From assembly GCA_029857955.1 (NCBI GenBank), contig JAOUFY010000004.1, forward strand, positions 1-64,000: a stretch of DNA of 64,000 nucleotides. The letters run 5' to 3'. The notes under the pieces are model-generated. The model made no database searches, was not told the origin of the DNA, and saw only the letters and a program-made list of their open reading frames with translations. Shown here piece by piece: positions 10,052-37,546 of this stretch (position 1 is the first letter of the stretch; each line of letters begins with the position of its first letter). The translations under genes were made by a program, and so were the position numbers. Origin of the DNA: Spirochaetia bacterium (GTDB lineage: Bacteria; Spirochaetota; Leptospiria; Turneriellales; JAOUFE01).

Positions 10052-10939
10052 CTATAATCCAAGCATTTCGTAATAAGGAATTAATTCATGAGGGGTTTGG
10101 TAATCACGATATCGGGCATTTAGAAATACAAGAGGAAACGCAGGTAATGTATTGCCGGCATTTACCCTGTTTTGACTTTTTAAAATATTTTGCACTTCAA
10201 ACGGTGTTATATCTCCTCTGCCGACTAAAAGCAATGTACCTGTTATAATACGAATCATGTTGTGTAAAAAACCGGAGCCATGAAAATAAAAATATAAAAA
10301 TGAATCTTTAGGTATAATATAAATCTTGTCAACTCGACGAATGGTTATTTCATTTGTGACTTTATAAATGTTTTTGGTAAAAGATGCAAAGTCATGTTCG
10401 CCGATTAAATACTCGGCAGCCTGGCGCATGGAATCCAGATCCACCGGATACCTGATCCAGAGGTGATTGTTTTGATACATGGCCATTCTGTATTTGGACG
10501 TGATGATTCCGTATATGTATTCTCTGGACTGGCACGAAAATCTTGCATGAAAATCATCTGGTACAATATTTCCATAAATAATGGAGATATCTTTTGGCAA
10601 AATACAGTTTAAATTATAAATCATTCTGTCGATATGCATTTCAAATTTATGAATATGCGGATTAGATGATTTATGCGGTAATGAAAGATTGATATTGCTT
10701 TGTGAACTTACATCTTTTGTTCGAAATAATAAATCTGATTCATTAATTTCAAAATGAATAACCTGACCGGCTGAATGTACTCCTGAATCAGTTCGACCTG
10801 CGCAGTGAATTCTTACGTTACTTCTAAAATAAATTTTAAGAATATTTTCAATTTCTTCTTGAACGGATCTTTCGCCTGTTTGTCTTTGAAATCCATGAAA
10901 ATGTAATCCATTGTACTGAATTGTCAGGGCAATTTTCAT
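10052..10939 (-). CDS. truA: tRNA pseudouridine(38-40) synthase
   Basis: TruA converts uridines 38-40 of the tRNA anticodon arm to pseudouridine. The catalytic aspartate motif CAGRTDSGVHSAGQVIHFE is intact. The N-terminal IALTIQYNGLHFHGFQRQ and the C-terminal FLHNMIRIITGTLLLVGRG are also diagnostic. About 295 residues, slightly longer than usual, with a family-typical insertion in the middle. The ATG at 10939 shares its A with the TGA of the upstream YihY-like gene, so expression is coupled; an in-frame TTG one codon earlier is less likely. Confidence 0.93.
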   Translation of the reverse strand: MKIALTIQYNGLHFHGFQRQTGERSVQEEIENILKIYFRSNVRIHCAGRTDSGVHSAGQVIHFEINESDLLFRTKDVSSQSNINLSLPHKSSNPHIHKFEMHIDRMIYNLNCILPKDISIIYGNIVPDDFHARFSCQSREYIYGIITSKYRMAMYQNNHLWIRYPVDLDSMRQAAEYLIGEHDFASFTKNIYKVTNEITIRRVDKIYIIPKDSFLYFYFHGSGFLHNMIRIITGTLLLVGRGDITPFEVQNILKSQNRVNAGNTLPAFPLVFLNARYRDYQTPHELIPYYEMLGL

Positions 10940-13293
10940 CAAGGCTTGTTATCGCCGTAAAAAATCTGGGCAAAAGTAAGATCATTAAATACTTTACTTC
11001 TTGCCGATTTTACCTGATTAAAGTAATTTTCTACTCGCGTTTTAAATTGATTATCGATGCTGGTTTCTGGTATATGATAATCCGTCGGATCAATGTCGTC
11101 CATGATTTCGTTCATTTTAAGAGTTGCCGGACTGACCACCGGAGTGTATCTGTTTTTTCCGGTTTTTTCCAAAATGTTTCTGTCTGTAAACTTTTCAATG
11201 ATGCTGTAAAATTCAGTATAATTGTTGTGGCAAACGCGAACAAGATCGGCTTCTTTTGTAGAACCATTTCCTTTATCATAGTTGTTATACAAAATGTATA
11301 ACATTTTAAGTCCAAACCACATTTGACGCTTTTCTTTTTCTACTTTCATTGTTAAACCGCTAAGCTTAAGCAGTCCCGGGTTTTGTATAAAAAAGGCTAT
11401 TTCTGCTCCAAATAACATAATAGAAACTGATGTATAAACCAACAAGAGAACCAGCGGAATCGCAGCAAGTGTTCCATAAATGGCAAACGTGCCTTTTGAA
11501 AATGAAGAAACGTAGTATTTAAAAACCAAAAGGAAAACTACCCAGAGTAAAGAAGTCACGGCTGCGCCATAAATAGCCGCTTTATTGACAACCTCGGTAA
11601 AGGGCATAACTTTGTATAATAAAAAGAAAATAATTCCGATGACTATAAAAGGCAGAATAAAACTTCCAAAAGCAGAAAGCATGGTTCTGGCAAATGGAGA
11701 CTTTTGAATAACCGAAAATTCATAAAACTTTTCATTAGTGTTTTTTAATATTTCATATCTTGTTCCTGTAATGTAGATTTTATTTTCTTTTGGATTATAG
11801 ATTACTTGAGTCAAGTTTTCCTTTGTATTGAATTCAGTTGGTTTCCATATCGTGCCGGCGTCATCTGTATACCGGATAAAACCTTTTTCTCCAATGATCA
11901 CACCTTCTTTGTCATTTATAAAAGTAATTCCTTTAAATTCAATGTTATTGATACCCAGGTTATTTTTTTTCCAGGTTTTTCCATCATCTGATGAGTGAAG
12001 TAAAGTTCCATAATCGCCGGTTATCCAGACATCGCTGCCGTGCTTATATATACGATTTAAAGTTGCCCTGTCTTTTCCAGTAAGTTGTGTAACTTCGTTA
12101 AAAAGTTTCCAGTGCATACCATTATCTTCACTTACAAGAGATGAAAATGTATCACCGACTATGACAAGTTTATCGCGGCCCAGCATTTGTATGTCATATA
12201 AATCGAAGTCAATATTTTTGATATAATTTGGTACCCAGCTTTTGCCGCCATTGTCGGTTCTCAAAATCAAGCCTTTGTTTCCGATAATATAACCGGTTTG
12301 ATCATTATACATTTTAATTTTATTAAAATGTACATCAAATAGAAGTTTAAAATCTTCACGTTCATAACATTGGATATCCCATAATTTTTCATCGTTACCG
12401 ATATTGTTGATGATGCATCCATTGTCCGTCAAAATCCATGATTTTCCATTTTGAGAAGCATACGAAACAAAAGTTCTCCATGAAATATCTTTTACTGACG
12501 GGTTATATAGTTTTGGCAAATGCGGCTCTTTTTCTTCAGGTGAAAGAATACTGTTTGTTTCTTTGTTAAATAAAATGGTATCTTTGCGGGCCTCAAAATC
12601 AATGTTTGAAACAATATCGACGGGATTCCATTTTCCATTTGTATACGTCAAGTACGTTGCTTTTTCACCTGTAATTACTGTTTTGTTTTCAAGGGCTTCA
12701 AAAGAAACAAGATCTGGCGGAGCTGCTTGATTTACGACTCTTTGTCCAAGAGAAATACCGACTGTAAGCAAAATGGGTCCAAAAATAAGAACCAGTAAAA
12801 AACCGCTGATTTTTTGAATCCATGGGCGTCCCTTTTTAACCATCCAGATTCGGTTCATTGCATCTTCAAGATTACGAAGGGCGCTTGTGGCAGTGAATAA
12901 TAAAACAAGAAAACCAATCCCTGTTACGGCATTGGCATTGTTTAACAATTCGTTTATGATGTTAATATAAGGATCGGGATCAATGGGAATGCCCTGTTTT
13001 CGAATAAATTCACGGGCATATAAAAAATATTTTTCTTTTTCGATTATTTTAGCTCCGACTAAAAGCGCAACAACCATGACGGGAACAAAACTGACAACGA
13101 GAGAATAGCTGATGGACGCTGCACGAAGCAATGCCTCATCATCAAGAAATTTCTTGATGGATCCAATGAGGATTCGTACAACATCACGTAAGCCGTGTTT
13201 AAACGATTTTTGATCAGGTGAAGTATGATCACCTATGATTTTATCCAAGGCAGTAAATAATTTTTTCTTTAATCCCGTTTTTTCCTGTTCCAT
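10939..13293 (-). CDS. YihY/BrkB-family membrane protein with inserted beta-propeller
   Basis: A 784-residue protein with a split YihY/BrkB (UPF0761) membrane domain. The N-terminal part has the conserved LLRAASISYSLVVSFVPVMV and a third helix ending near residue 185. The domain resumes at about residue 540 with further membrane segments and the typical SKGTFAIYGTLAAIPL block. Between them lie about 340 residues with at least five Asp-box/BNR motifs (NGKSW, DNGGKSW, DNGMHW, DDGKTW, DDAGTIW), resembling Ycf48-type propellers, predicted periplasmic. The start at 13293 is chosen because AGAAGGA lies just upstream; an ATG 12 codons earlier lacks one. YihY homologues are normally 280-430 residues. 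Function of the family is unsettled (envelope integrity has been proposed). Confidence 0.85.
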   Translation of the reverse strand: MEQEKTGLKKKLFTALDKIIGDHTSPDQKSFKHGLRDVVRILIGSIKKFLDDEALLRAASISYSLVVSFVPVMVVALLVGAKIIEKEKYFLYAREFIRKQGIPIDPDPYINIINELLNNANAVTGIGFLVLLFTATSALRNLEDAMNRIWMVKKGRPWIQKISGFLLVLIFGPILLTVGISLGQRVVNQAAPPDLVSFEALENKTVITGEKATYLTYTNGKWNPVDIVSNIDFEARKDTILFNKETNSILSPEEKEPHLPKLYNPSVKDISWRTFVSYASQNGKSWILTDNGCIINNIGNDEKLWDIQCYEREDFKLLFDVHFNKIKMYNDQTGYIIGNKGLILRTDNGGKSWVPNYIKNIDFDLYDIQMLGRDKLVIVGDTFSSLVSEDNGMHWKLFNEVTQLTGKDRATLNRIYKHGSDVWITGDYGTLLHSSDDGKTWKKNNLGINNIEFKGITFINDKEGVIIGEKGFIRYTDDAGTIWKPTEFNTKENLTQVIYNPKENKIYITGTRYEILKNTNEKFYEFSVIQKSPFARTMLSAFGSFILPFIVIGIIFFLLYKVMPFTEVVNKAAIYGAAVTSLLWVVFLLVFKYYVSSFSKGTFAIYGTLAAIPLVLLLVYTSVSIMLFGAEIAFFIQNPGLLKLSGLTMKVEKEKRQMWFGLKMLYILYNNYDKGNGSTKEADLVRVCHNNYTEFYSIIEKFTDRNILEKTGKNRYTPVVSPATLKMNEIMDDIDPTDYHIPETSIDNQFKTRVENYFNQVKSARSKVFNDLTFAQIFYGDNKP

Positions 13294-13367
13294 ATATTTC
13301 CTTCTTCTATAAAACGGATATTCGGACAAACGTTTTTTAAATCAAAATTAAAAGTAAATGATAAATT

Positions 13368-34896: not shown

Positions 34897-35802
34897 ATGA
34901 AATCAAATTATTATTTTCTCTATGCCTCATTGCCTGATATTTCTTTTAACGAAAAAAAAGATTACAGGGAACTTGCGTATTTGTTTAACGAGGTAATTGA
35001 CTCCTTGTCAGATGAGGACAGGCTTGCGGTACGTTACATTCGATACCCAATTGACAATAGCAATTTAATGATTTTGCTTGAGGGTGAGTCAAATCCTGAA
35101 GAAAAATTTCAGCCTTGGGGTAATTATACTCTTGATGAATTAAAATATGAAATAAAGTCAAGAGATACAATTCCAGCTTACATGAGTCGATTTATAGAGT
35201 ACTACCACAAGTTGCTCGTTGAATTTAGCGGTACAAGTTATATTGATTTACTCAATGAATATTTCATGAAAGAAATATTCTTGCTGAATGATCATAAGGC
35301 AAATTCTTTTTTTAATTATGATCAACCTGGTTTTGACTGTCATTTTATCAAACGATGGTTTGTTTTTGATCGCGATTTTAAAAATGTATTAACCGCCATT
35401 GAATGTATGAAACACGATGAACCGGTCGAAAGACGTGAAAGCGTGAGGGTCGATCAGAGGCCCGGTCAGCGTCTTTCAGGCGATTATGAAGTAAGCGATT
35501 TATTGCTCAAAAGCAAGTCATATGATTTTTCTCTTTCGGGAACTTTCTCATGGATGACTAAAGTTTTAAATTTAAATTCTAAAAATATTTACGACTATGA
35601 AAAAGAAATTATTTTAATGAAACTGGAAATGCTGGATGAATTGGCCGGCGATGAAAATTTTTCATTATCAACACTGCTGGCGTATTTAATAAAACTGCAA
35701 CTTTTAATACGTTGGAGCTCACTTGACGAGACAGCAGGCAAAAAATTCATAGATCATATATCTCAAAAAGTTAAAAATTATGCATATGAAAACAACAGGT
35801 AA
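34897..35802 (+). CDS. DUF2764 protein of V-ATPase clusters
   Basis: A 301-residue protein beginning NYYFLYASLPDISFN, the typical opening of DUF2764 proteins, which lie between V-ATPase subunits E and A in spirochaetes and several other phyla. It is helical, with a C-terminal block DEKFAGDENFSLSTLLAYLI-like in character (around residues 245-285). By size and position it may replace subunit C in coupling rotor and stalk, but this is unproven. It overlaps the A-subunit gene by 23 nt. Confidence 0.8.
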   Translation: MKSNYYFLYASLPDISFNEKKDYRELAYLFNEVIDSLSDEDRLAVRYIRYPIDNSNLMILLEGESNPEEKFQPWGNYTLDELKYEIKSRDTIPAYMSRFIEYYHKLLVEFSGTSYIDLLNEYFMKEIFLLNDHKANSFFNYDQPGFDCHFIKRWFVFDRDFKNVLTAIECMKHDEPVERRESVRVDQRPGQRLSGDYEVSDLLLKSKSYDFSLSGTFSWMTKVLNLNSKNIYDYEKEIILMKLEMLDELAGDENFSLSTLLAYLIKLQLLIRWSSLDETAGKKFIDHISQKVKNYAYENNR

Positions 35803-37546
35803 AATAACAGGTATAGTATCTAATCTTGTAACGATTTCGGTAAGCGGTCCGGTTATACAAAATGAAATTTGTTACATTTTGTACAACGGTCTTCGTATCT
35901 TGTCAGAGGTGATTCGAATCGACAATGAGCGAGTTTACGCCCAGGTTTTTGAAAGCACACGGGGAATACAAACAGGAACCGAGGTAGAATTTACAGGGAA
36001 AATGCTCGAGGTTCAACTTGGCCCGGGTATGTTGGCCAAGGTTTATGACGGTTTACAAAGTGATTTATACGCCATGGAAAGTTTATTTATCACCCGCGGT
36101 ATGAGCAGTCCTGCTCTTGATTATACGAAGAAATGGAAATTTAAGCCTTTATGTAAAGTCGGCGACGAAGTTTCAGCCGGCGAATGGCTTGGCGAAGTTC
36201 AAGAAAACTGGATCAGTCACAAAATCATGGTACCATTTCGATTTAAAGAAAAATTAATCATAAAAAGTATCGTCAATGAAGGCAGTTATAATTTGGAAGA
36301 TATCATTGCCGTGGTTAAGAACAATGAAGGGCAGGAATTTCCTTTGACCATGGTTTTCTCATGGCCGGTAAAAAGACCTGTGCGCGTTCACAAAGAAAAA
36401 ATCAGACCTTTCAAAATTTTAGAAACTGGCGTAAGGGTAATCGATATCTTTAATCCGATGATGGAAGGCGGCACCGGATTTATTCCAGGGCCGTTTGGAT
36501 GCGGAAAAACAGTTTTACAGCATACAATTTCAAAACATGCCGATGCCGATTTAATTATCGTTGTGGCCTGCGGCGAAAGAGCCAACGAAGTGGTGGAATT
36601 GTTTACGGAATTTCCAAACCTGGATGACCCAAGAACCGGAAGAAAAATGATGGAAAGAACCATCATCATTTGCAATACTTCAAATATGCCGGTTGCAGCG
36701 CGTGAAGCTTCGGTATACACGGGCATGACCATTGCCGAATATTATCGCGCCATGGGCTTAAAAGTTCTTATATTGGCAGATTCGACATCCCGTTGGGCGC
36801 AAGCTCTTCGTGAAATGTCAAATCGTATGGAAGAATTACCTGGTCCTGACGCCTATCCGATGGATCTTTCTGCCATCGTCGCCAACTTTTATGCCAGAGC
36901 CGGTTTTACATGGCTGAAAAATAACAAAAGCGGGTCTGTTACTTTTATTGGAACCGTTAGCCCCGCCGGCGGAAATTTTAAAGAACCTGTTACCGAAGCA
37001 ACCCGCAAAGTCGCGCGTGCGTTTTATGCCCTATCGCAAAGCCGCGCCGACAGTAAGAGGTACCCTGCAATTGACCCGATCGAAAGTTATTCAAAGTATC
37101 TTGAATATGACGAGGTTAAGCAGGAACTTAACACAATATTTGATATTCAGTGGACAACAAAGGTCAGCCGTCTGATGAACATTTTGATCAGAGGCAAGGA
37201 TATTAAAGATCAAATTGGTATTTTGGGCGACGACGGGGTACCCGTCGATTATCATGAAGTGTTCTGGAAGTCAGAGGTGATCGACTTTGTCTTGCTTCAG
37301 CAGGACAGCTTTGATAAAGTCGATGCCAGTACGCCATTGATTCGTCAAAAGTATATGGTCGATTTATTGTTGTCAGTTTGTGAAAAAAATTATGACTTTG
37401 ATCATTTTGAAAAAGTCAGCGAATTTTTCAAGAAAATCATCAATACTTTAAAACAATTGAACTATTCAGTTTACCAGGAAAAAGATTTTATCAGCCACGA
37501 AGCTAACCTGAATTTACTAATAAGCGAGAGAACAAAAAATTCATGA
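35780..37546 (+). CDS. atpA: V-type ATPase catalytic subunit A
   Basis: A 588-residue catalytic subunit. The P-loop is GPFGCGKT at 237-244, followed by the ERANEVVELFTEFP segment, the SNMPVAAREASVYTGMTIAE block, ADSTSRWAQALREMSNRMEE with the catalytic region, and the SPAGGNFKEPVTEAT loop. The long non-homologous insert between residues 100 and 200 is that of A subunits rather than F1-beta. It is translated from within the end of the DUF2764 gene and overlaps atpB by 4 nt. Confidence 0.95.
   Translation: MHMKTTGKITGIVSNLVTISVSGPVIQNEICYILYNGLRILSEVIRIDNERVYAQVFESTRGIQTGTEVEFTGKMLEVQLGPGMLAKVYDGLQSDLYAMESLFITRGMSSPALDYTKKWKFKPLCKVGDEVSAGEWLGEVQENWISHKIMVPFRFKEKLIIKSIVNEGSYNLEDIIAVVKNNEGQEFPLTMVFSWPVKRPVRVHKEKIRPFKILETGVRVIDIFNPMMEGGTGFIPGPFGCGKTVLQHTISKHADADLIIVVACGERANEVVELFTEFPNLDDPRTGRKMMERTIIICNTSNMPVAAREASVYTGMTIAEYYRAMGLKVLILADSTSRWAQALREMSNRMEELPGPDAYPMDLSAIVANFYARAGFTWLKNNKSGSVTFIGTVSPAGGNFKEPVTEATRKVARAFYALSQSRADSKRYPAIDPIESYSKYLEYDEVKQELNTIFDIQWTTKVSRLMNILIRGKDIKDQIGILGDDGVPVDYHEVFWKSEVIDFVLLQQDSFDKVDASTPLIRQKYMVDLLLSVCEKNYDFDHFEKVSEFFKKIINTLKQLNYSVYQEKDFISHEANLNLLISERTKNS

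Follow-up and report, generated by a model that had tools for sequence, protein, structure and literature searches.

Proteins of the YihY/BrkB family (UPF0761; PF03631, TIGR00765) are widespread in bacteria and, as seen in the control genomes, are also present in archaea; their membrane domain is an uninterrupted six-helix core. Ycf48/HCF136 (PF14870) is an Asp-box propeller located on the membrane face away from the cytoplasm. Ycf48 is a free lumenal protein, which most cyanobacteria have as a lipoprotein, and it binds D1 via an arginine-rich patch (PMC11449106). Extracytoplasmic propellers joined to membrane helices are likewise found in the Bacteroides hybrid two-component sensors of the BT4663 type, hybrid kinases with large periplasmic domains (~745 aa), while the Asp-box glycosidases and sialidases are characterized by conserved catalytic residues. 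EMC1, a propeller on the lumenal side, is one of the subunits of a membrane-protein insertase.

The gene described here lies in a window of 64,000 nucleotides (the whole stretch of DNA analysed) and encodes a known kind of protein, YihY/BrkB, carrying a Ycf48-type propeller as an insert. Both domain families were already known, and no paper describing a YihY-propeller fusion was found in the literature that was searched. The window protein resembles other YihY/BrkB members in its six-helix core, its conserved residues and the scores of both membrane halves, which lie above the cut-off, and differs from them by a propeller of ~355 aa between TM3 and TM4. Ycf48 is the closest system in both sequence and fold, but the window propeller is embedded in another protein instead of being a free-standing exported protein or lipoprotein, and no conserved arginine patch like that of Ycf48 was seen in the insert alignment, which has no conserved Arg among sites with entropy <1.6. 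Unlike the BT4663-type sensors, the window protein has one propeller, placed inside a six-helix domain, and no kinase. The likeness to the EMC1 N-terminal propeller (PF25293) is limited to a weak match in one relative (E 2e-5), and the window protein is without an insertase core. As regards the glycosidases and sialidases, neither the acidic pair nor the arginine triad of their catalytic residues is conserved in the insert alignment.

Gene layout and membrane topology

The features of the gene and of its downstream neighbour are as follows:

13300..13305, minus strand: Shine-Dalgarno-like AGAAGG just upstream of the ATG at 13293, recognized from the sequence
10939..13293, minus strand: yihY-propeller gene, 784 aa plus stop, ATG at 13293
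12727..13161, minus strand: YihY/BrkB N-terminal half, TM1-TM3, aa 45-189 (PF03631/TIGR00765 at aa ~46-190; hydropathy)
11662..12726, minus strand: inserted beta-propeller, predicted to be extracytoplasmic, aa 190-544 (PF14870, Ycf48 structures of the PDB, Foldseek, ~7 strand groups)
11374..11661, minus strand: YihY/BrkB C-terminal half, TM4-TM6, aa 545-640 (PF03631 profile positions 153-257 at aa 534-638)
10942..11373, minus strand: C-terminal domain, predicted to be cytoplasmic, aa 641-784 (winged-helix-like in relatives)
10052..10939, minus strand: truA (PF01416), one base of its start codon being common with the yihY stop

The membrane domain matches PF03631 (Virul_fac_BrkB; E 7.6e-39, 134.3 bits against a cut-off of 33.7) in two stretches flanking the insert, and an NCBIfam search agrees, with both YihY and Ycf48 models matching the protein. 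Hydropathy gives three helical stretches before the insert (cores of TM1-TM3 at aa 63-78, 124-133 and 166-178) and three after it, and the core residues conserved in the family are present (D52, Y63, P71, E143, N147, R156, P564, G576, P613 and G629). The preliminary description had read the protein as a YihY/BrkB domain split after its third helix, and the two PF03631 halves do lie in order on either side of the insert. The continuity of the membrane domain that marks the family is thus broken by the ~355 aa insert, and the protein is classed as a YihY/BrkB variant because its orthologue in genome G131 is uninterrupted. In the window genome, one PF03631 protein and one PF14870 protein were found, both being the product of this gene.

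The coupling with truA that had been proposed is real in the window, where the two genes overlap by one base at 10939 (TGATG), with an alternative truA start possible at a TTG at 10942; it is not general, since truA adjoins the yihY-propeller gene only in f1 and f4 among the families examined (family codes of this kind being labels of the analysis). Elsewhere in the window, the ORF at 35780-37543 carries ATP synthase alpha/beta domains together with a PF16886 extension, as in the catalytic subunits of A/V-type enzymes.

The insert, which constitutes the TM3-TM4 loop, is predicted to lie outside the cytoplasm by a single rule, the positive-inside rule, which the loop charges follow. The mean positive and negative charges in the family are +4.2/-0.6 for the TM2-TM3 loop and +2.0/-0.2 for the TM4-TM5 loop, compared with +1.2/-0.7 for the flank at the end of TM3 and +0.95/-0.2 for the TM5-TM6 loop. 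The pattern agrees with the periplasmic location originally put forward, and a cytoplasmic topology did not appear.

Sequence, fold and constraint of the inserted propeller

The insert (aa ~190-544, ~355 aa) matches the PSII_BNR/Ycf48 family PF14870 with E 4.4e-21 (75.9 bits against a cut-off of 27), and the nearest solved structures by phmmer are Ycf48 proteins (5ojp, E 2.7e-14). Its Asp-boxes, searched for with the pattern [ST]x[DN]xGxx[WFY], are:

12379..12405, minus strand: degenerate Asp-box, aa 297-305, aligned with relatives and intact in most of them
12235..12258, minus strand: Asp-box TDNGGKSW, aa 346-353, pattern match
12109..12132, minus strand: Asp-box SEDNGMHW, aa 388-395, pattern match
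11971..11994, minus strand: Asp-box SSDDGKTW, aa 434-441, pattern match
11845..11868, minus strand: Asp-box TDDAGTIW, aa 476-483, pattern match

Four boxes therefore fit the pattern in the window protein, where the preliminary description had counted at least five; the fifth (aa ~297-305) is degenerate here. Shuffled inserts contained a mean of 0.07 Asp-boxes and never more than two in 20,000 shuffles, against the four of the actual insert.

For AlphaFold modelling, the input was the window protein together with that of L031 (a genome of the window's genus, whose YihY-propeller protein is 62% identical), a shallow alignment that gave a model weak for the membrane part. The full-length model has a mean pLDDT of 42, with block means mostly of 63-83 over aa ~320-510, while the model of the insert alone has a mean of 51 and contains ~7 groups of mostly four strands. 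With both models, Ycf48 chains rank first in Foldseek (2xbg, E 2.7e-10; 5oj5, E 1.4e-8), further matches including the periplasmic sensor propellers BT4663 (4a2l/4a2m) and BT4673 (3ott) as well as GH74; the NCBIfam glycosylhydrolase model F510_1955 also matches the window protein. The Ycf48-type propeller first suggested from the letters alone is consequently recovered by sequence (PF14870, 5ojp) and by model (Foldseek), and modelling of the insert returned a propeller-like fold. The propeller is probably closed and seven-bladed, the blade count being taken from these low-confidence models.

The insert is less constrained than the membrane core: its median pairwise identity is 0.21, compared with 0.34 in TM1-3 and 0.45 in TM4-6. 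The two g1 genus members share 84% and 79% identity in the core halves and 50% in the insert. Most conserved insert sites are glycines, belong to an Asp-box or are hydrophobic, P193 and D232 being exceptions. D232, the Asp of an ID motif (aa 231-232, window 12598-12603) located between the first and second blades, lies outside the Asp-boxes and is a candidate functional or structural site.

Distribution and history in Spirochaetota

In a survey of 297 Spirochaetota genomes, propeller-bearing YihY proteins were found in at least 12 families (f1, f3, f4, f5, f6, f12, f23, f28, f31, f35, f37 and f42), with the insert at an identical point in 47 proteins and a length of 324-396 aa. Other families have unsplit YihY, and the propeller-free members of the phylum that were measured have a TM3-TM4 loop of 8-36 aa. 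PF14870 at E 0.001 missed the propeller in 4 of the 24 aligned members; individual scans of two divergent f6 proteins with this profile gave E 0.003 for one and no match for the other, but the f6 proteins align with the window protein through the insert. Tblastn against plasmids returned separate Ycf48-like or YihY matches and no fusion, and nothing was found in a scan of viral contigs.

With 139 contigs, the assembly of the window genome is fragmented, and a fusion of two genes by assembly or annotation had to be considered. The same frame, uninterrupted by stops, occurs in dozens of genomes obtained independently, some of them near-complete; such an artefact was therefore rejected and is virtually excluded.

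Two other proteins were noted in the survey. The YihY of f14 (L096:4934-6727) has an unrelated Asn-rich insert of ~140 aa in the TM5-TM6 extracytoplasmic loop, and an open frame of 1491 aa in genome G070 (G070:C234:9306-11039) contains two Ycf48-like propeller matches, the YihY of this genome being unsplit.

A tree of the membrane core was built with the insert left out (57 rows, 381 columns, root not inferred), and the presence of the insert requires two changes on it, one on the stem of a 48-row group and one for G131. This group takes in all the insert-bearing rows with support of 92/92, below the starred threshold, and G131 is nested among insert-bearing sisters at 100/100. Because the PF03631 family is uninterrupted, gain followed by loss is the natural reading of these sequences. 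That the propeller arrangement arose once, deep in Spirochaetota, with one loss among the sampled genomes, is well supported on this tree. A recent foreign origin of the insert was also considered and rejected, its G+C of 0.34 standing against 0.36-0.38 in the flanks and the insert being shared phylum-deep.

In the G131 orthologue (L080:5054-6388), the propeller is cleanly absent at the TM3-TM4 loop and PF03631 forms a single stretch. Its core is 68-80% identical to those of the nearest sisters, and the neighbours of the locus match theirs (EF-G, a sugar nucleotidyltransferase, a TonB-like gene and an MgsA-type ATPase). G131 is a draft genome; an assembly slip, though conceivable, is unlikely, because the absence is in-frame and at the domain boundary.

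One YihY-propeller protein of f5 (L084:5022-7401, genome G020) groups with f1 (92/86), apart from the other f5 proteins, for which transfer or hidden paralogy are possible explanations.

Gene neighbours

No neighbour gene common to all the families examined was found. The neighbours are PBP1a or response-regulator/GGDEF genes in f3 and methyltransferases in f5, and a convergent TonB-like gene is present in f12, f23, f28, f31, f35 and f42. In f4, the gene directly upstream of yihY-propeller (L089:3309-4913) matches LptD_N (E 2e-7), and a homologue holds the same place in L103. LpxC was found in every listed genome of the window's class and was not found in the propeller-bearing f12, f23 and f28 genomes; since the propeller is kept in these, an LPS-specific role or substrate for it is unlikely.

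Proposed role and alternatives

The architecture, homology and history of the protein are well supported, and the role proposed on this basis is the following. The six-helix YihY/BrkB protein of the inner membrane holds a Ycf48-type Asp-box propeller in its TM3-TM4 loop, predicted to be the second one on the extracytoplasmic side, where the propeller is seated on linkers of roughly ten residues; if it is closed, its first and last blades would stand side by side, so that TM3 and TM4 need not spread. The propeller may serve as a docking platform that, much as Ycf48 does with D1 at the lumenal face of thylakoids, grips a partner outside the cytoplasm, be it a client protein, an assembly factor or envelope material. 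This partner would be held above the YihY helices on their outer side, and the core putatively handles lipid or lipid-linked substrates. Docking is considered the most likely role, with a probability of about one half, the mechanism being drawn from the analogy with Ycf48 and from the pattern of conservation. It is favoured because Ycf48 proteins, which bind a membrane-protein client outside the cytoplasm, give the closest matches in sequence and in fold, and because the insert is uniform in length and position in 47 proteins of at least 12 families, with one stem change plus one loss on the tree, the G131 orthologue retaining both locus and core with the propeller cleanly missing. Furthermore, its fast divergence, with glycine and Asp-box sites conserved, points to a scaffold or a lineage-specific binding face and not to a fixed active site. 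Against docking count the gene neighbours, which differ between families and point to no partner, the low confidence of the models (mean pLDDT 42 and 51), and the clean loss in G131, where the core persists alone, so that the propeller is not indispensable.

The propeller could instead recognise or cut an envelope polymer, or present a lipid-linked substrate to the core. Asp-box propellers do include glycosidases, as the GH74 and F510_1955 matches recall, and genetic work ties E. coli YhjD, a relative by the NCBIfam match TIGR00766, to survival in the absence of Kdo: by its title, the 2008 study of Mamat et al. (cited in PMC4404585) reportedly has YhjD giving viability to Kdo-depleted cells. 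Such a glycan- or lipid-binding module or enzyme is nevertheless somewhat unlikely, given an insert in which no conserved catalytic residues were seen and which is retained where LpxC was not found. A transmembrane sensor, in which an extracytoplasmic ligand bound by the propeller would be signalled through the YihY helices to the winged-helix-like C-terminal domain, would fit the matches to BT4663 and BT4673 and the fast evolution of the insert, as well as the Rrf2 (PF02082) matches of the C-terminal domain in 2 of the 24 aligned proteins and in L096; in the window protein itself, however, no Pfam family matches the C-terminus. Moreover, a sensor domain and its output domain would be retained together, whereas several propeller-bearing f6 proteins are without the C-terminal domain, which G131 and the propeller-free YihY proteins have. 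Because the two are lost independently, the sensor-like role suggested in the preliminary description is disfavoured and appears unlikely. Fast divergence and the clean loss in G131 would also suit a spacer or stabilising lid with no specific partner, and the Asn-rich insert of f14 indicates that the family tolerates extracytoplasmic inserts; that such a spacer should keep a uniform length in 47 deeply diverged proteins from no fewer than 12 families, with one loss sampled, is however quite improbable.

Implications for the YihY/BrkB family

A domain fused in cis to YihY is a clue to the membrane side and the kind of partner with which the family may work, and the presence of propeller-bearing and propeller-free orthologues in one genus offers a natural comparison for the contribution of the propeller. 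A broader proposal, advanced here as a rather doubtful one, is that a client-holding propeller of the Ycf48 type has been built into YihY lineage-wide. If this were true, YihY would take part in the assembly or export of envelope components, and elsewhere the equivalent function would fall to a distinct extracytoplasmic partner of the unfused YihY proteins.
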